Positions 33,861-42,621 of a DNA stretch of 64,000 nucleotides are shown here, in pieces (the first letter of the stretch is position 1; each line of letters begins with the position of its first letter). The notes under the pieces were generated by a model. It worked only from the letters and a program-made list of their open reading frames with translations, was not told where the DNA came from and did not search any database. The position numbers and the translations under genes are program-made. Source of the DNA: Clostridia bacterium (lineage in GTDB: Bacteria; Bacillota; Clostridia; Oscillospirales; Acutalibacteraceae). Location: assembly GCA_017625435.1 (NCBI GenBank), contig JAGAKX010000011.1, positions 124,001 to 188,000 on the forward strand, given 5' to 3'.

Positions 33861-34946
33861 TCAGTTTTTGCTGGTCTGTCTTTCGCAGTAAATACATCTG
33901 TAGACACCGTTTTCGGGGTCTGTCAGACGGAACTTGTGCTGAAGCTCCTGCTCAATGGACGTTATACACTTACTGTTGTCACAGCGAAGGGTATTATCAA
34001 CAATATAATCTGTATCCGGATGGTAGGCTCTGTCCTTTTCGGCTTCCTCAAGAAGCTTGAGAATCAAAGCCATTCTTATGTATTTACCGTTTAATGCCTG
34101 CTTGAAATAACAGGCTCTCGGGTCTTTGTCAACTCCTACGCTTATTTCGTTTACACGGGGCAGGGGATGCATAATTGTAAGTGTTTCTTTTGCAAGGCAA
34201 AGCTTATCTGTGTCAAGACAGTATGAATCCTTGAGCTTGAGATACTCTTCAAATGTAGGGAAGCGCTCCTGCTGGATTCTTGTCATATAAAGTATGTCAA
34301 GTGAGGGAAGTGCCTCTTCAAGGCTGTGAGTTTCCCGGAAGCTGCCCTCTTTAAGATACTTTTTCTTTATGTTCCCGGGAAGACGAAGCTCTGTAGGGGA
34401 TATAAGCACCACGTTTATGTCTTCGTAACGGGAAAGGGCATATATCAGCGAATGAACGGTTCTGCCGTAACGTAAATCTCCGCAGAAGCCGATTGTGAAG
34501 CCGTGCAAGGAGCCCTTTTCACGGTGTATTGTGAGAAGGTCGGTAAGTGTTTGTGTGGGATGGTTGTGACCGCCGTCGCCTGCATTTATTACAGGAACAT
34601 CTGCATTTTCTGCAGCAACAAAGGGAGCCCCCTCCTTAGGATGGCGCATTGCAATTATATCCGCATAGCAGCTGATAACCTTTGCGGTGTCTGCTACGCT
34701 TTCGCCCTTTGCCGCAGAGGAGCTTGTTGCCTCCGAAAATCCGAGCACACTACCGCCCAGCTCAAGCATTGCAGCTTCAAAGCTGAGTCTTGTTCTTGTA
34801 GAGGGCTCATAGAAAAGTGTGGCAAGCTTCTTGTGTCTGCACTTTTCTGCATATTCGTCGGGATTTGCTATAATATCCTTAGCTGTTTCAATAAGCTCGT
34901 CTATTTCGGGGACGGTTAAATCAAAAATGCTTATAAGACTTCTCAT
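33861..34946 (-). CDS. pyrB: Aspartate carbamoyltransferase with fused PyrI-type zinc domain
   Basis: 361 residues, about 50 longer than usual PyrB. Residues 1-310 are the catalytic subunit, with the carbamoyl-phosphate site EPSTRTRLSFE (about 49-59) and HPTQTLTDL. The extra C-terminal part has Cys322, Cys327, Cys351 and Cys354, spaced Cys-x4-Cys-x23-Cys-x2-Cys, exactly as in the zinc domain of E. coli PyrI (109, 114, 138, 141). The allosteric nucleotide-binding domain of PyrI is missing. The zinc domain may hold catalytic trimers together. Last gene of the pyrimidine operon. Confidence 0.92.
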   Translation of the reverse strand: MRSLISIFDLTVPEIDELIETAKDIIANPDEYAEKCRHKKLATLFYEPSTRTRLSFEAAMLELGGSVLGFSEATSSSAAKGESVADTAKVISCYADIIAMRHPKEGAPFVAAENADVPVINAGDGGHNHPTQTLTDLLTIHREKGSLHGFTIGFCGDLRYGRTVHSLIYALSRYEDINVVLISPTELRLPGNIKKKYLKEGSFRETHSLEEALPSLDILYMTRIQQERFPTFEEYLKLKDSYCLDTDKLCLAKETLTIMHPLPRVNEISVGVDKDPRACYFKQALNGKYIRMALILKLLEEAEKDRAYHPDTDYIVDNTLRCDNSKCITSIEQELQHKFRLTDPENGVYRCIYCERQTSKN

Positions 34947-34979
34947 TTACACCCGTTTCCTTTCTTTTTCTATGCTTTT

Positions 34980-35636
34980 TTATGCTTTTGCACCGTTTAC
35001 AGCAAGGTAAGCCTTGATTCTGTCAACGTTTTCCTTGTTCTTTTCGTCTTCTTCGAGGTATTCGATGATGTCGTAAACATCAACAACGGAATATACAGGG
35101 AAGCCGAATTCTTCTCCTACCTCTGCCATAGCGGACTTTTCGGTCTGACCCTTTTCTTTTCTGTCAACCATAACAAAGCAGGCTGCAACCTTTGTGTCCT
35201 TAAGGGAAGAGAGGATAGCCATGCTTTCTCTTATTGCCGTACCTGCTGTGATAACATCCTCAACGATTACGATTTCTTCGCCGGCAACGGGCTTGTAGCC
35301 TACAAATACACCGCCCTCGCCGTGGTCCTTTTCTTCCTTTCTGTTGAAGAAGAAGGGAACATCAAGATTTTCCTTTGAAAGTGCACATGCAACGGAAACC
35401 GCAATCGGAATGCCCTTGTAAGCGGGACCGTAAAGAACGGTTTTCTTATTGCCGATTTTGTCAAAATATGCCTTGGCGTAGAATTCGCCGAGCTTTGAAA
35501 TCTGATCGCCGGTCTTTATGTCGCCTGCGTTGATGAAATAGGGAATCTTTCTTCCGCTTTTAGCTGTAAAATCACCGAACTTAAGAACGCCTGCGCCCTC
35601 AAGAAACTGTATAAAATCTCTCTTGTAGCTTTCCAT
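34980..35636 (-). CDS. pyrE: Orotate phosphoribosyltransferase
   Basis: Joins orotate to PRPP to give OMP. 218 residues, cytoplasmic. The PRPP loop IVIVEDVITAGTAIRE and the LYGPAYKGIP segment are typical. It begins 11 bp after pyrF in the pyrimidine operon. An acidic helical end (EYLEEDEKNKENVDR) is slightly longer than in Bacillus. Confidence 0.95.
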   Translation of the reverse strand: MESYKRDFIQFLEGAGVLKFGDFTAKSGRKIPYFINAGDIKTGDQISKLGEFYAKAYFDKIGNKKTVLYGPAYKGIPIAVSVACALSKENLDVPFFFNRKEEKDHGEGGVFVGYKPVAGEEIVIVEDVITAGTAIRESMAILSSLKDTKVAACFVMVDRKEKGQTEKSAMAEVGEEFGFPVYSVVDVYDIIEYLEEDEKNKENVDRIKAYLAVNGAKA

Positions 35637-35647
35637 AATTAATCTCC

Positions 35648-36346
35648 TTAACCTACGAATTCTTTAACGCATCTTCTGTATGCTGCAACGGGGTCCTCTG
35701 CTCCCGTGATGGGTCTGCCGACAACGATGTAATCCGAACCGATAAGCTTTGCCTGCTCGGGAGTCATAACTCTCTTCTGGTCACCGATTTCTCCGTCAGC
35801 AAAGCGTACTCCGGGAGTAACCGTTACGAAATCCTTGCCGCATACGGTGTGCACCTTTTCTGCCTCGAGGGGAGAGCATACAACACCGTCAAGACCTGCC
35901 TTTTTAGCGTTCTCGGCATAATGCATAACAACCTTGTCAATAGGCTCTCTAATAAGAAGGTCGTTTTCCATAGCCTCCTGGTCTGTAGAAGTAAGCTGTG
36001 TAACCGCAATGAGAATGGGACGTGTGCCGTCTTCTCTTGTGAGACCTTCAATTGCAGCCTCCATCATTCTTATTGTTCCTGCTGCGTGAAGGTTTGTCAT
36101 ATCAACATCAAGTCCCGAAAGAACAGCCATTGACTTTTTTACTGTGTTAGGGATGTCGTGAAGCTTGAGGTCAAGGAATATCTTGTGGCCTCTGGCTTTG
36201 ATTTCTTTAACGATTTCAGGGCCTGCGCCGTAGAAAAGCTCCATGCCTATTTTTACGAAAGGCTTCTCCTCTGTAAACAGATCAAGAAAGCTCATAACCT
36301 TTTCCTTGTTCGGAAAATCGCAGGCGATAATTACGTCTTTACCCAT
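35648..36346 (-). CDS. pyrF: Orotidine-5'-phosphate decarboxylase
   Basis: Final step to UMP. 232 residues, TIM-barrel, of the Bacillus/E. coli group. [10 protein letters not shown] at the start, the catalytic [12 protein letters not shown] (Asp-x-Lys-x2-Asp) and the phosphate loop [13 protein letters not shown] are all present. Its start overlaps the pyrD stop by one base, indicating translational coupling. Confidence 0.96.
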
Positions 36347-37257
36347 TATTTTGCTCCTCCTATTATATCTGAAAGTGAATTTATTCCGTATTTCTCCATA
36401 ACCATCGGAAGGTCATTTATTATATCTCTTGCACAGAAGGGGTCAATAAGATTCTGTGCACCGATTTCAACTGCCGTAGCACCTGCAAGCATAAGCTCAA
36501 TAACATCCTCAGCCTTTGAAACACCGCCCATACCTACAACGGGAATGTTAACGGCATTGGCGACCTGATAAACCATTCTTACCGCAACGGGGAATATGGC
36601 GCTGCCTGAAAAACCGCCCATTTTGTTTGCAATTACGGGCTTTTTTGTCTTAAGGTCAATTCTCATGCCGAGAAGTGTATTTATAAGGCTTATGCCGTCG
36701 GCTCCTGCTTCCTCGCAGGCCTTTGCAATGCTTACGATGTCTGTTACGTTGGGGGAAAGCTTGATGATTACGGGCTTGGTTGTAACCTTTTTTACTGCTT
36801 TGGTTACCTCTGCCGCAGCCTCGGGGGAAGTGCCGAAGCTCATACCGCCGCCGTGAACATTGGGACAGCTGACATTTACTTCAAGCCAGCCTACCTCTTC
36901 GCATTTGTCAAGCTTTTCGCAGGTGTAGGCATAGTCCTCAATTGAAAAACCGCTGACATTAGCCATAACCTTCTTACGGAAGACCTTTCTCATTTTAGGA
37001 AGCTCTTCCGAAATTACCTTCTCAACACCGGGATTCTGAAGTCCGACGGCATTTATCATACCGGCGGTACACTCCGCAATTCTGGGAGTGGGATTTCCGA
37101 ATCTGGGATCCTTTGTTGTTCCCTTGAAGGAGAAAGTTCCGAGAATATTTATATCGTAAAGCTCGGCAAATTCATAGCCGTAGCCGAAGGTACCGCTTGC
37201 GGGGATAACGGGATTATCAAGAGTTATTCCGCAAAGGTCAACACTCATTTTTCCCAT
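36346..37257 (-). CDS. pyrD: Dihydroorotate dehydrogenase 1B, catalytic subunit
   Basis: 303-residue FMN enzyme oxidising dihydroorotate to orotate. Class 1B is indicated by the adjacent pyrK electron-transfer gene and by the Cys in the [11 protein letters not shown] active-site loop. [13 protein letters not shown] and [13 protein letters not shown] are typical. Its ATG at 37257 is inside the end of pyrK (13-bp overlap) behind GAAGGAGGAG. Confidence 0.96.
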
Positions 37258-37982
37258 ATTATCTCCTCCTTCTTAAGGACGGGACCGTCCTTGCATATTC
37301 TCTTGTTGCCGTAAAGTGTCTTGCAGGAGCATCCCATACAGGCACCGAAGCCGCAGCCCATTCTCTCTTCAAAGCTGAACTGTCCTTCAATAGATGTTGC
37401 GTTGTAAAGTGCTTTCAGCATAGGCTCGGGACCGCAGGTGTAGAAATAAGCTGCATCGGGGAAGCTTTCAAGGGCATTTGTAACAAATCCCTTAACTCCG
37501 CGGCTGCCGTCAACAGTCGTAACGGTAACGTCACAGCCGAGAGCCTTGAATTCCTCTTCAAAGAACACTTCGCTTTCCGTGTTGAAGCCGAGAATCACAC
37601 CGACCTTCTTACCTTCTTTAATAAGCTTTTTTGCAAGCATATAAAGGGGAGGTACACCGACACCGCCGCCCACAAGAAGTACATTTTCTCCCGAAAGGGA
37701 GGTGTCGTAGCCGTTGCCGAGGCCTGTAAGAATATCAAGAGTGCCGCTTTTCATTTCCTTCATCTGCTCGGTACCCGTGCCTACAACCTTGTAGATGATT
37801 GTAAGTACATTCCCCTCAACATCGTTTACGGAAATGGGACGTCTGAGGAAAAGACCGTCGAGCTTGATATTAACAAACTGACCGGGGGCTGTTATATCTG
37901 AGGTGTCTCCCTCAAGACGCATAAGATATACGTCTTTTGTGAGGGGACGGTTCTCTTTGATTGTAAATAAACTTTGTTTCAT
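37245..37982 (-). CDS. pyrK: Dihydroorotate dehydrogenase electron transfer subunit
   Basis: 245-residue FAD and 2Fe-2S protein that passes electrons from PyrD to NAD. It has a ferredoxin-reductase fold with FAD-site RRPISV and the NAD loop LLVGGGVGVPPLY. The C-terminal ERMGCGFGACMGCSCK together with a later RICKDGPV supplies four Cys for the cluster. Overlaps pyrD by 13 bp and lies 9 bp after carB. Confidence 0.96.
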   Translation of the reverse strand: MKQSLFTIKENRPLTKDVYLMRLEGDTSDITAPGQFVNIKLDGLFLRRPISVNDVEGNVLTIIYKVVGTGTEQMKEMKSGTLDILTGLGNGYDTSLSGENVLLVGGGVGVPPLYMLAKKLIKEGKKVGVILGFNTESEVFFEEEFKALGCDVTVTTVDGSRGVKGFVTNALESFPDAAYFYTCGPEPMLKALYNATSIEGQFSFEERMGCGFGACMGCSCKTLYGNKRICKDGPVLKKEEIIWEK

Positions 37983-37991
37983 TTGTGCTCC

Positions 37992-40900
37992 TTATGCATC
38001 AATTGTTGAAATACAGAGTGTTGTTTCTTCAAGAACATCAAGAAGAACGCTTACCGTGTCGAGAGCCGTAAAGAGTGTGATGTTATTCTCTGTTGCATAT
38101 CTTCTGATTTCGTGTCCGTCGCTCATAGGTCCGTTTGAGCCGATATCTCTTGTATTGATAACATAAGCTATATGACCCTGACGGATAGCATCAATTATTT
38201 CGGTGCTGCCTTCGCTTATTTTCTTGTGCACGTGAGTTCTGATGCCGTGTGCCTTGAGGAATGCCGCTGTGCCTTCAGTTGCTTCGATGTTGAAGCCGAG
38301 CTTATAGAATCTTCTGATAAGAGGAAGTGCTTCTTCCTTGTCCTTATCGGCAATTGTTGCAAATACGGTACCGTAGTTCTGAAGCTTTGTGCCTGCAGCC
38401 TGAAGTGCCTTATAAACTGCACGGTAAAGCTTGTCGTCATAACCGATTGCTTCGCCGGTGGACTTCATTTCGGGGGACAGATATGCGTCAAGTCCTCTGA
38501 TTTTTGAGAAGGAGAATACGGGAACCTTTACGTACCATCTCTTCTTTTCATCGGGATAAATTCCGAATATGCCCTGTTCCTTAAGGGATTTGCCCATAAT
38601 TACCTCGGTTGCTATATCTGCAAGTGAGTAGCCTGTTGCCTTTGAAAGGAAGGGAACAGTACGTGAGGAACGGGGGTTAACTTCAATGATGTAAACATCG
38701 TCGTGCTCGTCAACAATGAACTGAATGTTGTAAAGACCCTTGATGCCGATGCCGAGACCGAGCTTCTTTGCATACTGCAGGATTGTGCCTTTGACCTTAT
38801 CGGATACTGAGAAAGTGGGATATACGCTTATTGAGTCACCGGAGTGGATACCCGTTCTTTCGATAAGCTCCATAATACCGGGAACGAAAACGTCAATGCC
38901 GTCGCAGATAGCGTCAACCTCAACTTCCTTACCCTGAATGTATTTGTCAACAAGCACGGGCTTGTCCTCGTCGATTTCAACGGCTGTCTTGAGGTAATGT
39001 CTTAACTGTTCTTCGTTTGCAACAATCTGCATAGCGCGTCCGCCGAGAACGAAGGAGGGACGGACAAGTACGGGGTAGCCGATTTCAGCAGCGGCTGCAA
39101 TGCCGTCTTCAATCTTGGTAACAGCCTTACCCTTTGCACGGGGAATGTTAAGTTCGTTAAGAAGATTTTCAAATGCGTTACGGTCCTCTGCACGGTCAAT
39201 AGCAGCGCAGTCCGTACCGATGATTCTGACACCTCTGTCGTGAAGAGGCTGAGCAAGGTTAATGGCAGTCTGACCGCCGAGGGAAGCTACAACACCTTCG
39301 GGCTTTTCGAATTCAACGATGTTCATAACATCTTCGGGAGTAAGAGGCTCGAAATAAAGCTTGTCCGCAGTTGTGTAGTCGGTGGAAACTGTTTCGGGGT
39401 TGTTATTTATAATAATTGCCTCGTAGCCTACATTCTTGATTGTCATAACAGCGTGTACGGTAGAATAGTCAAATTCAACACCCTGACCGATACGGATAGG
39501 ACCTGCACCGAGAACGATAATCTTCTTTCTGTCGGTAAGACGGGAGGCATTTTCGCCTGTGTAGGAGGAGTAGAAGTAAGGAATGTAAGCACCTGTGTGG
39601 CAGGTATCAACCATCTTGAATACGGGGAAGAGGTTGTTTTCCTTACGCATATTGTAAACGTCTGCTTCGGAGCATTTCCAGAGACGTGCTATATACTTGT
39701 CTCCGAAGCCCATCTTCTTTGCTTCGGTGAGGATTTCGATATCCTTCTTTACACGAAGCTTTTCTTCCATATCAATGATGTTCTTGAATGCCTGAAGGAA
39801 GAAGGGGGTAATCATTGTGATTTCGTTAATCTTTTCAACGGAAACACCGTGATAGAGAAGCTCGGCGATAGCAAAGATGTTGTCTGCACGGAATTCCTTT
39901 ATGTATTCAAGAAGCTCGTCAACACTCATATTGTCGAACTTTGAAAGATAGATGTGGTCAGCGCCGATTTCAAGTGAACGGATTCCCTTGAGAAGTGCTT
40001 CCTCAAGATTTGAACCGATGCCCATAATTTCACCGGTAGCCTTCATCTGTGTGCCCAGTGTATTGGGAGCACCTGCAAACTTATCGAAGGGGAAGCGGGG
40101 CAGCTTTGCAATAACGTAGTCAAGGCTGGGCTCAAATGCTGCATTTGTATTGGCAATCTGGATATCTTCGAGAGCCATACCCACGGCAATTTTAGCGGTT
40201 ACGCGTGCGATAGGATAACCTGAAGCCTTTGATGCAAGAGCCGATGAACGTGAAACTCTGGGGTTAACCTCGATAAGGTAATACTCCGAAGTGTGGGGGT
40301 GAAGAGCGAACTGAACATTGCATCCGCCTTCGATTTTAAGCTCCTTGATAAGCTTTATTGCGGAATCGTTCAGCATTTTTTCGTCTTCCTTGCTGAGTGT
40401 CATAATGGGAGCCACAACGCAGGAGTCGCCTGTGTGAACACCTACGGGGTCAATGTTTTCCATTCCGCAGATGGTAATTGCATGGTCATTGCCGTCACGC
40501 ATAACCTCAAATTCGATTTCCTTATAGCCCTTAACACTCTTTTCGATAAGAACCTGATGAACGGGGGAGAGCTTGAAAGCGTTTGTGCCGACCTCAATAA
40601 GCTCTTCTTCATTATAAGCAAAGCCGCCGCCCGTACCGCCGAGAGTGAATGCGGGACGAAGTACAACGGGATAGCCGATTCTTTTGGCTGCAGCCTTTGC
40701 TTCATCAAGAGAATATGTGATTTCGGAGGGAATTGTAGGCTCTCCTACAGACTGGCAGAGCTCCTTGAAAAGCTCTCTGTCTTCTGCTCTTTCAATGCTT
40801 TCGCTGCTTGTTCCGAGAAGCTCAACGCCGCACTCTTTAAGAACGCCCTTCTTTTCAAGCTGCATAGCAAGGTTAAGACCTGTCTGACCGCCGATGCCGG

Positions 40901-41162
40901 GGATTATTGCATCGGGACGCTCGTGACGGATAATCTTTGCTACGTATTCGAGTGTCAGAGGCTCCATATAAACCTTATCTGCGATAATTGTATCAGTCAT
41001 AATGGTAGCAGGATTGGAGTTGCAGAGAACTACCTCATAGCCTTCCTCCTTGAGAGCAAGACAAGCCTGAGTGCCCGCATAGTCAAATTCGGCAGCCTGT
41101 CCGATAACTATGGGGCCTGAGCCGATAATCATAATCTTTTTGATGTCTGTTCTTTTAGCCAT
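37992..41162 (-). CDS. carB: Carbamoyl-phosphate synthase large subunit
   Basis: 1056 residues, two homologous ATP-grasp halves (starts near MIIGSGPIVIGQ and VLGAGPIRIGQGVEFDY) and a C-terminal allosteric MGS-like domain. Makes carbamoyl phosphate for PyrB from ammonia, bicarbonate and two ATP. The glutaminase partner CarA is not in this operon or window, which is unusual since carA normally precedes carB. The next gene in front is pyrC, ending 12 bp before it. Confidence 0.97.
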   Translation of the reverse strand: MAKRTDIKKIMIIGSGPIVIGQAAEFDYAGTQACLALKEEGYEVVLCNSNPATIMTDTIIADKVYMEPLTLEYVAKIIRHERPDAIIPGIGGQTGLNLAMQLEKKGVLKECGVELLGTSSESIERAEDRELFKELCQSVGEPTIPSEITYSLDEAKAAAKRIGYPVVLRPAFTLGGTGGGFAYNEEELIEVGTNAFKLSPVHQVLIEKSVKGYKEIEFEVMRDGNDHAITICGMENIDPVGVHTGDSCVVAPIMTLSKEDEKMLNDSAIKLIKELKIEGGCNVQFALHPHTSEYYLIEVNPRVSRSSALASKASGYPIARVTAKIAVGMALEDIQIANTNAAFEPSLDYVIAKLPRFPFDKFAGAPNTLGTQMKATGEIMGIGSNLEEALLKGIRSLEIGADHIYLSKFDNMSVDELLEYIKEFRADNIFAIAELLYHGVSVEKINEITMITPFFLQAFKNIIDMEEKLRVKKDIEILTEAKKMGFGDKYIARLWKCSEADVYNMRKENNLFPVFKMVDTCHTGAYIPYFYSSYTGENASRLTDRKKIIVLGAGPIRIGQGVEFDYSTVHAVMTIKNVGYEAIIINNNPETVSTDYTTADKLYFEPLTPEDVMNIVEFEKPEGVVASLGGQTAINLAQPLHDRGVRIIGTDCAAIDRAEDRNAFENLLNELNIPRAKGKAVTKIEDGIAAAAEIGYPVLVRPSFVLGGRAMQIVANEEQLRHYLKTAVEIDEDKPVLVDKYIQGKEVEVDAICDGIDVFVPGIMELIERTGIHSGDSISVYPTFSVSDKVKGTILQYAKKLGLGIGIKGLYNIQFIVDEHDDVYIIEVNPRSSRTVPFLSKATGYSLADIATEVIMGKSLKEQGIFGIYPDEKKRWYVKVPVFSFSKIRGLDAYLSPEMKSTGEAIGYDDKLYRAVYKALQAAGTKLQNYGTVFATIADKDKEEALPLIRRFYKLGFNIEATEGTAAFLKAHGIRTHVHKKISEGSTEIIDAIRQGHIAYVINTRDIGSNGPMSDGHEIRRYATENNITLFTALDTVSVLLDVLEETTLCISTIDA

Positions 41163-41174
41163 AAAATTCTCTCC

Positions 41175-42401
41175 TTATATGTTCTGATGTTCATAAACTG
41201 TTTTATTGCCGGAAACCGTCAGCATACAAACGCCTGACAGTTTCGCCCCCGTGAAGGGTGTTGCTCTTCCCTTTGAAAGGAATTCTTCGGAATTTACCGT
41301 AAACTCTTTATTGAGGTCCCATACGGTAAAGCTGCCGTCAAAGGGGATTCCGAAACGCTTGCGGGGATTTATTGCCATAAGCTCAATAAGCTTTTCGAGG
41401 CTTATTTCACCGGTTTTTACAAAGTTTGTATACATAACGGAAAAGGATGTTTCAAGTCCCACGATTCCGAAGGAGCTGCCTTCAAGTCCCTTACTTTTCT
41501 CTTCCGCCGAGTGGGGAGCGTGGTCCGTTGCAATCATATCAATTGTTCCGTCTTTAATGCCTTCTATGAGAGCCAGTCTGTCTTCCTTGTCTCTTAAAGG
41601 CGGATTCATTTTGAATCTTCCGTCCTCCTGCAGGTCCGAGTCATCCATTACAAGGTAGTGGGGACCAGTTTCGCAGGTGACATCAAGTCCTTCCTTTTTT
41701 GCCTGTCTTATAAGCTCAACGCTTTCCTTTGCGGAAATGTGGCATACGTGGTAAGCACATCCCGTTTCTCGGACAAGCTGCAGGTCTCTTTCAATCTGCT
41801 TCCATTCGCTTTCAGAACAGATTCCTCTGTGACCGTGTTCTTCGGCATATCTGCCTTTGTGTATATATCCGCCCTCAAGCAGGTCATTCACCTCGCAGTG
41901 AGCTGCTATTATCTTTCCGAGCTTTTTTGCTTTAAGCATTGCTTCACGCATCATACCGTCGGACTGTACGCCTCTGCCGTCGTCGGAGAAGGCAACACAG
42001 TACTGTGCGAGTCCTTCCATATCCGAAAGGATTTCTCCTTTTTCGCCTACGGTAATTGAAGCGTAAGGATAAACCTTTATTGTCGCATCCTTCTTTATTG
42101 CATCAAGCTGAAGCTTCATATTATCAATGCTGTCGGGGACGGGGGAGAGGTTCGGCATTGTGCATACTGCCGTGTAACCGCCGTGAGAAGCCGAGAGACT
42201 GCCGCTTTTCATATCCTCTTTATAAGAAAAACCCGGTTCGCGAAAATGCACATGCACATCGCAGAAACCGGGAAAGACAGTATATTTAAAGTCGTTGTAC
42301 TTCTCGAAGACAGAGGAAACAGAAAATAAATCACCCGTGCCGGTTTCAAAACCGGGGAGAACCGATGAACCTATTACGTTTGCTTTAATTGCCTTCGTCA
42401 T
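41175..42401 (-). CDS. pyrC: Dihydroorotase
   Basis: Third step of UMP synthesis, a zinc amidohydrolase of 408 residues. The first metal site is DVHVHFREPGF; the second-half signature MIATDHAPHS is intact, and further His ligands follow in HVCHISAKE. A longer frame to 42521 runs through the leader RNA; the ATG at 42401 with AAAGGA five bases upstream is preferred over the ATG at 42416. First gene of the pyrimidine operon. Confidence 0.94.
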   Translation of the reverse strand: MTKAIKANVIGSSVLPGFETGTGDLFSVSSVFEKYNDFKYTVFPGFCDVHVHFREPGFSYKEDMKSGSLSASHGGYTAVCTMPNLSPVPDSIDNMKLQLDAIKKDATIKVYPYASITVGEKGEILSDMEGLAQYCVAFSDDGRGVQSDGMMREAMLKAKKLGKIIAAHCEVNDLLEGGYIHKGRYAEEHGHRGICSESEWKQIERDLQLVRETGCAYHVCHISAKESVELIRQAKKEGLDVTCETGPHYLVMDDSDLQEDGRFKMNPPLRDKEDRLALIEGIKDGTIDMIATDHAPHSAEEKSKGLEGSSFGIVGLETSFSVMYTNFVKTGEISLEKLIELMAINPRKRFGIPFDGSFTVWDLNKEFTVNSEEFLSKGRATPFTGAKLSGVCMLTVSGNKTVYEHQNI

Positions 42402-42419
42402 CTTTTTTCCTTTCATTCT

Positions 42420-42487
42420 CCGGTCAATACCGGGACATAAAACAACAGCGAAAACACTACTGTATTTTCGCATTGTCCCGTTGCCGG
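42420..42487 (-). ncRNA. Structured leader of the pyrimidine operon
   Basis: Three nested stems on the minus-strand RNA: CCGG with CCGG (42487-42484, 42423-42420), CGGGACA with TGTCCCG (42480-42474, 42437-42431) and GCGAAAA with TTTTCGC (42471-42465, 42454-42448). There is a 10-nt internal bulge on the 3' side. The SD follows immediately and is not in the stem, and no T-run terminator follows. It lacks the PyrR-binding consensus I would expect. It may be a regulatory RNA of an unrecognised class. Confidence 0.6.
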
Positions 42488-42511
42488 AAACAGTTCGTTT
42501 TGTTGTTAGAT

Positions 42512-42540
42512 ATTCTATCACGAAGCCCCCCGTTTGTCAA
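42512..42540 (-). promoter_or_regulatory. Promoter of the pyrimidine operon
   Basis: Minus-strand TTGACA (42540-42535) and TAGAAT (42517-42512), 17 bp apart. Start point near 42505, giving a leader of about 104 nt before pyrC. Confidence 0.8.
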
Positions 42541-42621
42541 CTTGAAATCAGTATAATTATTAACTTTCTTATAATATACAGTTTGTATGAAATTTGACCT
42601 GTGATTTTTGTTTAAAAGATA

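Follow-up and report, generated by a model that had tools for sequence, protein, structure and literature searches.

The leader between the promoter and pyrC on the minus strand of the window (the whole 64,000-nucleotide stretch analysed) contains a hairpin followed by a U-rich tract, and by sequence comparison this core is a narrow, clade-limited leader element of a few related gut bacteria. We tentatively read the core, from its pattern of conservation, as a lineage-specific attenuator or hairpin-stabilised pause in the pyr leader of a clade without detectable PyrR, and put the probability of this reading at roughly 0.37. The clade consists of the window genome (G000) and G006, G013, G015 and G019, among 26 genus genomes examined. 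A tree of 11 chosen pyrC proteins groups these five with support of 99/97 without settling their inner order, and the pyrC proteins of the other members are 79–80% identical to that of the window, so that the genomes are well diverged.

The gene order on the minus strand is pyrC-carB-pyrK-pyrD-pyrF-pyrE-pyrB, then purE. Downstream of pyrC, profile matches were over a cut-off for carB, pyrD, pyrF, pyrE and pyrB, and the match for pyrK stayed below it. The leader spans approximately 42505–42402 (-), with its transcription start deduced from the position of the promoter, which in the other four clade members reads TTGACA-17-TAAACT. The pyrC start codon, ATG at 42401, aligns in position across the five clade proteins, and TGAAAGGA is common to all five leaders at the Shine-Dalgarno. 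As a side observation, carB is present at 37992–41162 of the window, yet no carA was found in the clade: profile TIGR01368 gave none in G000, G006, G013 and G015 (G019 being outside that search) or in G003 and G045, and PF00988 gave none in the five clade genomes or G023 and was present in G012 and G014, with assembly gaps possible. Free ammonia, which E. coli CarB is able to use (PMC6245113), may serve as the substrate in this clade.

Table 1. Features of the pyr locus in the window, with positions and the basis of each assignment.
Feature	Position	Strand	Basis or remark
Core hairpin, GCGAAAAUAC-AGUA-GUGUUUUCGC	42448..42471	(-)	Fold; kept in four of five clade members
U-rich tract 3' of hairpin, UGUUGUUUUAU	42437..42447	(-)	Conserved; may act as terminator tail or pause hybrid
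Outer stems, 5' strand, UUUCCGGCAACGGGACA	42474..42490	(-)	Fold; flank-shuffle test
Outer stems, 3' strand, UGUCCCG-GUA-UUG-A-CCGGAGA	42417..42437	(-)	Fold; flank shuffles (31 of 1,000 as stable)
Two DNA blocks, TTTTAAACAAAAA-20-AAACTGTATA	42575..42617	(-)	Clade conservation
Promoter, TTGACA-17-TAGAAT	42512..42540	(-)	TG before second hexamer; 11/12 consensus match
Shine-Dalgarno of pyrC, AAAGGA	42408..42413	(-)	Sequence
pyrC, dihydroorotase, 408 aa	41178..42401	(-)	TIGR00857 over cut-off
carB, pyrK, pyrD, pyrF, pyrE, pyrB	33861..41162	(-)	Profile matches and ORFs

The sequence-only reading had described nested stems with a large asymmetric bulge between the promoter and the pyrC ribosome site, with the strand left unstated; this architecture is present, on the minus strand. 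The bulge sets two nucleotides (AU) against ten (UGUUGUUUUA) where the core meets the next helix, and the last base of the U-rich tract is also the first base of the 3' outer strand (42437). The window leader has an MFE of -34.0 kcal/mol, compared with a shuffle mean of -19.85 (sd 3.14; z -4.5), and none of 200 dinucleotide shuffles matched its stability. For a longer stretch around the leader, z was -2.7 and 2 of 200 shuffles were as stable, with the ensemble centroid showing an alternative fold in which the 3' part forms a hairpin of its own. In the centroid fold of the window leader, the stem ends 3 nt 5' of the Shine-Dalgarno, and structure close to this site, as proposed earlier, was found. 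The accompanying suggestion of an effect on translation gained no specific support, given that the Shine-Dalgarno is largely unpaired in the window leader (pairing 0.11–0.38) and that its pairing varies among the clade species. Control of translation via the Shine-Dalgarno is weakly supported.

The core was found in four of the five clade members, before pyrC and as one strong copy per genome, with the form GCGRAAAURC/GUGUUUUCGC for the hairpin and then (U)GUUGUUUURU; 28 of 49 columns are invariant in the alignment of these four leaders, which are the only sequences on which the core evidence stands, and G015 has a 1-nt deletion. A core model scored 58.6–64.7 bits in the four leaders, values that are partly by construction as the model was built from them, and no more than 27 bits in its other matches within the 26 genus genomes. 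When the leader was compared with these genomes by BLASTN, two relatives yielded the core with E<=0.002, the remaining hits being short matches. A regular expression for the core, applied to up to 260 nt upstream of 80 pyrC loci, matched one (L050, a contig of G019), a count that is too low where a match starts within the protein or the contig ends. In G013 the core is absent, and an unrelated 15-bp hairpin occupies the same place (L051 2920–3000). Conservation of the pairing in relatives, whose absence was to have refuted the earlier reading, was found in part: three of the four close relatives have the core, and the outer pairing is uneven. The conservation of both arms together with a one-sided U-rich flank could be what a terminator or pause needs.

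A pattern scan identified the inner hairpin with TGTTGTTTTA as terminator-like in the window leader and called the core terminator-like in all four leaders that have it, by consensus match only, the scan having located in the core both the G+C-containing hairpin and the U-rich tail of an intrinsic terminator; it returned no site in the G013 leader. Because the scan flags the core in the window and three relatives, the earlier statement that there is no terminator is doubtful. A rough Carafa-type score was below zero for each of the four cores (-20 to -37), as it also was for both scored forms of the terminator of the upstream gene and for one of the two PyrR-type terminators scored. Two Gs break up the U tract. 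Run with stricter filters over 300 family genomes, the core model gave a match at E<=0.5 in 114, including G000 and G006, and nothing above 33 bits besides these two, which are sources of the model. Judged against mechanical ORFs of at least 70 aa, 26 of 28 look-alike loci (L132–L159) lie outside any same-strand ORF. Of the 28, nine are within 50 nt after the end of a same-strand ORF, a further eight are no more than 30 nt from the end of a convergent ORF, and the other 11 occupy neither gene-end position. All 28 have a U-rich stretch 3' of the hairpin, a tail that the model itself demands, and GTTGTTTTRT is identical in three (L138, L141 and L155). The core resembles the intrinsic terminators of the family in its hairpin and U-rich tail, including the shared GTTGTTTTRT of these three, but differs from them in its location in a 5' leader, inside outer stems.

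The distance from hairpin to pause in hisL is 11 nt. If position -1 is set 11 nt beyond the hairpin (10 nt for G015, where the spacing is moved by one), all four leaders carry G at -10 together with T at -1, and three carry G at +1, a fit of the tract to the pause consensus G-10 Y-1 G+1 (PMC9291695). The motif is so short that such a fit could easily arise by chance. No effect of NusA is reported for the E. coli pyrL pause (PMC9291695), which makes that pause an unproven parallel to one that depends on a hairpin. Inspection of the four leaders by eye showed no conserved pairing of a mutually exclusive antiterminator.

The outer stem closes round the core in single-sequence folds of all four leaders, despite differing stem sequences. 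The z scores of whole leaders were -4.5 for G000, -3.8 for G006, -4.0 for G019 and -1.8 for G015. When the flanks were shuffled and the core kept, the numbers as stable per 1,000 were 31, 3, 7 and 224 in the same order, and the numbers with as many enclosing pairs were 280, 57, 64 and 111. On exchange of 3' flanks among the species, the cognate arrangement ranked second of 24. The two halves of the window leader gained only -3.6 kcal/mol over folding apart, below the gain with three foreign 3' flanks, and its outer stem is weakened as a result. The outer stems were tested with shuffled and swapped flanks; a covariation count on four unalignable stems would be circular. Because of these shuffle and swap results, support for the predicted outer pairing is uneven: good in two genomes, moderate at best in that of the window, and weak in one. 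In G006 (L004) and G019 (L050), UUUUUUU lies close after the outer stem and is followed by GAAAGGA, just before the pyrC Shine-Dalgarno, and the whole outer hairpin is therefore also terminator-like there; this U run is absent from the leaders of the window and G015. The rough terminator score of the outer hairpin was 4.4 for G019 and -55 for G006.

PyrR binds ACAGAGAGAYCGG-type loops. That the pyr leader of the window lacks such a loop and belongs to no known class, as had been suggested, agrees with our searches, in which no PyrR-type RNA and no RF00515 match were detected in the window. Rfam gave no match over the gathering score in the whole window, and at E<=10 only below-threshold matches outside the leader, with none overlapping it; no match over the gathering score was obtained in the loci of relatives (L003, L004, L005 and L050). 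RF00515 likewise had no match in the five clade genomes, in a search of low sensitivity that reached E<=0.001 in 10 of 59 genomes, G012 being the only one from the genus. The search for pyrR that had been proposed returned none over the family cut-off (NF003549) in the window genome, and G000, G006, G013, G015 and G019 all gave only weak matches below it; the clade genomes are listed as 85–98% complete, so that a gap is possible in each. Twelve of the 26 genus genomes have pyrR over the cut-off. The region upstream of pyrC was viewed in eight of these twelve, one of them (G024) cut by a contig end, and by eye the PyrR-type loop can be read clearly in G003, G004, G005, G009 and G012 and in part in G023, whereas none was seen in G022. 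It was also seen in G010 and G011, genomes that are 78% and 58% complete and have no pyrR over the cut-off. Other genus members without pyrR (G001, G014, G017 and G021) have short pyrC leaders by eye. A regular expression for the loop matched within 260 nt upstream of 22 of the 80 pyrC loci, again an undercount of the kind described above. Literature searches, with a 2017 set of 224 candidate RNAs outside their scope, yielded no paper recognised as describing this leader. The leader has no class in Rfam and counts as a candidate leader attenuator, narrow in distribution.

Comparison with known systems showed partial similarities. Like the PyrR attenuator (RF00515), the clade leader is a pyr leader in the same genus with a terminator-like hairpin before the first gene; unlike it, the clade leader lacks both a ACAGAGAGAYCGG-type loop and a match to RF00515, is accompanied by no pyrR over the cut-off, and has its hairpin inside an outer stem. 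The E. coli pyrBI (pyrL) attenuator depends on UTP-sensitive pausing. It shares with the clade leader a U-rich tract and a terminator-like hairpin, whereas the clade leader lacks a conserved Shine-Dalgarno-bearing peptide and has its tract 3' of the hairpin; pausing is described for pyrL in PMC9291695. The carA motif (SRC-12-1) of Polynucleobacter, compared by description only, is an extended imperfect hairpin right before the Shine-Dalgarno of a pyrimidine gene with narrow distribution and little covariation, but belongs to another phylum and precedes another gene (PMC8632094).

Under the preferred reading of an attenuator or pause, polymerase would pause or partly terminate at UGUUGUUUURU, a tract that demands many UTPs, and pyrimidine supply could thereby set read-through. 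The outer stem would close only once polymerase has passed the tract, and would then hold or release the core. A second step, such as translation coupling, outer-stem formation or an antiterminator, would be needed, because low UTP that slows polymerase at the tail favours termination, which is the wrong sense for feedback. The signal may be UTP, another metabolite or a protein, with sensing of UTP able in principle to operate. A broader proposal, which we consider rather unlikely, is that after loss of PyrR, and perhaps of carA, the clade evolved a leader that senses pyrimidine nucleotides directly and replaces the PyrR attenuator, either by UTP-dependent hairpin pausing or by ligand binding. 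If true, this would show rewiring of the pyrimidine operon on loss of its usual regulator, with PyrR-type and new leaders directly comparable in one genus. An attenuator that senses UTP without a protein would be a valuable find in a Gram-positive lineage, and the present one is a candidate on four sequences.

The layout of the leader would also suit the binding of a metabolite or protein by the core and the U-rich asymmetric loop, with the outer stem as an expression platform acting on translation. The retention of loop and core sequence, an outer stem predicted in all four leaders from unrelated sequences, the end of the centroid stem just before the Shine-Dalgarno, and the similar arrangement of the carA motif (PMC8632094) point in this direction, but conservation of sequence in both core arms is unusual for an aptamer stem, Shine-Dalgarno pairing is inconsistent among the species, there is a single target gene, and one clade member lacks the core; we regard such a leader as rather improbable. 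A stem that protects the 5' end of the mRNA or merely spaces the Shine-Dalgarno, without regulation, would accommodate the unrelated hairpin at the same place in G013, but core and tract are conserved beyond the needs of a generic stem, which makes this quite improbable. A pyrBI-like attenuator with a short, U-codon-rich leader ORF through the hairpin would fit the AUG that, by eye, each of the four leaders has within the core or immediately ahead of it, with U-rich codons after it; in G006, for example, the ORF is AUGCUUCUGGUGUUUUCGCUGUUGUUUUGU and ends in an ATGA overlap with pyrC. By eye, however, no Shine-Dalgarno precedes these AUGs, and frame, start and peptide are not conserved, the window AUG being elsewhere and in frame with pyrC and G015 having its 1-nt deletion. 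A leader peptide was accordingly judged unlikely, and we give this attenuator very little credence.

Control may instead reside in DNA, with the core as an operator under a repressor or with upstream sites acting and the leader passive, a view that we likewise hold to be rather improbable. The core, located downstream of the promoter, is a near-perfect inverted repeat (GCGAAAA..TTTTCGC), which is suggestive of an operator, but the 4 or 5 bp between its arms and the one-sided conserved flank are unlike a dimer site. Upstream control draws on the two blocks, whose spacing is fixed: in each of the five clade genomes, including G013, which lacks the core, 20 bp separate the two blocks and another 33 or 34 bp separate the pair from TTGACA. 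Their sequence varies little: TTTTAAACAATTT replaces TTTTAAACAAAAA in G013, AAACTGTATA has two mismatches in G015, and the pair TTTTAAAC..AAACTGTATA is exact in four clade genomes and has 2 mismatches in G015. Against such control, no wider regulon is seen, because the exact block pair is confined to pyrC in the five clade genomes, and with up to three mismatches the pair is no commoner there than a reversed control. The blocks may be transcription-factor sites, and perhaps the real control.

We also observed another pyrC leader. Upstream of pyrC in L091, L105, L107 and L110, where, as in L059, the regular expression found no PyrR-type loop, a short leader of the form GATAAATACAGCGGC..CGTCTTGCCGC..GGCAGGACATTTTTTTAGG is shared, and a looser form of it is present in L059.
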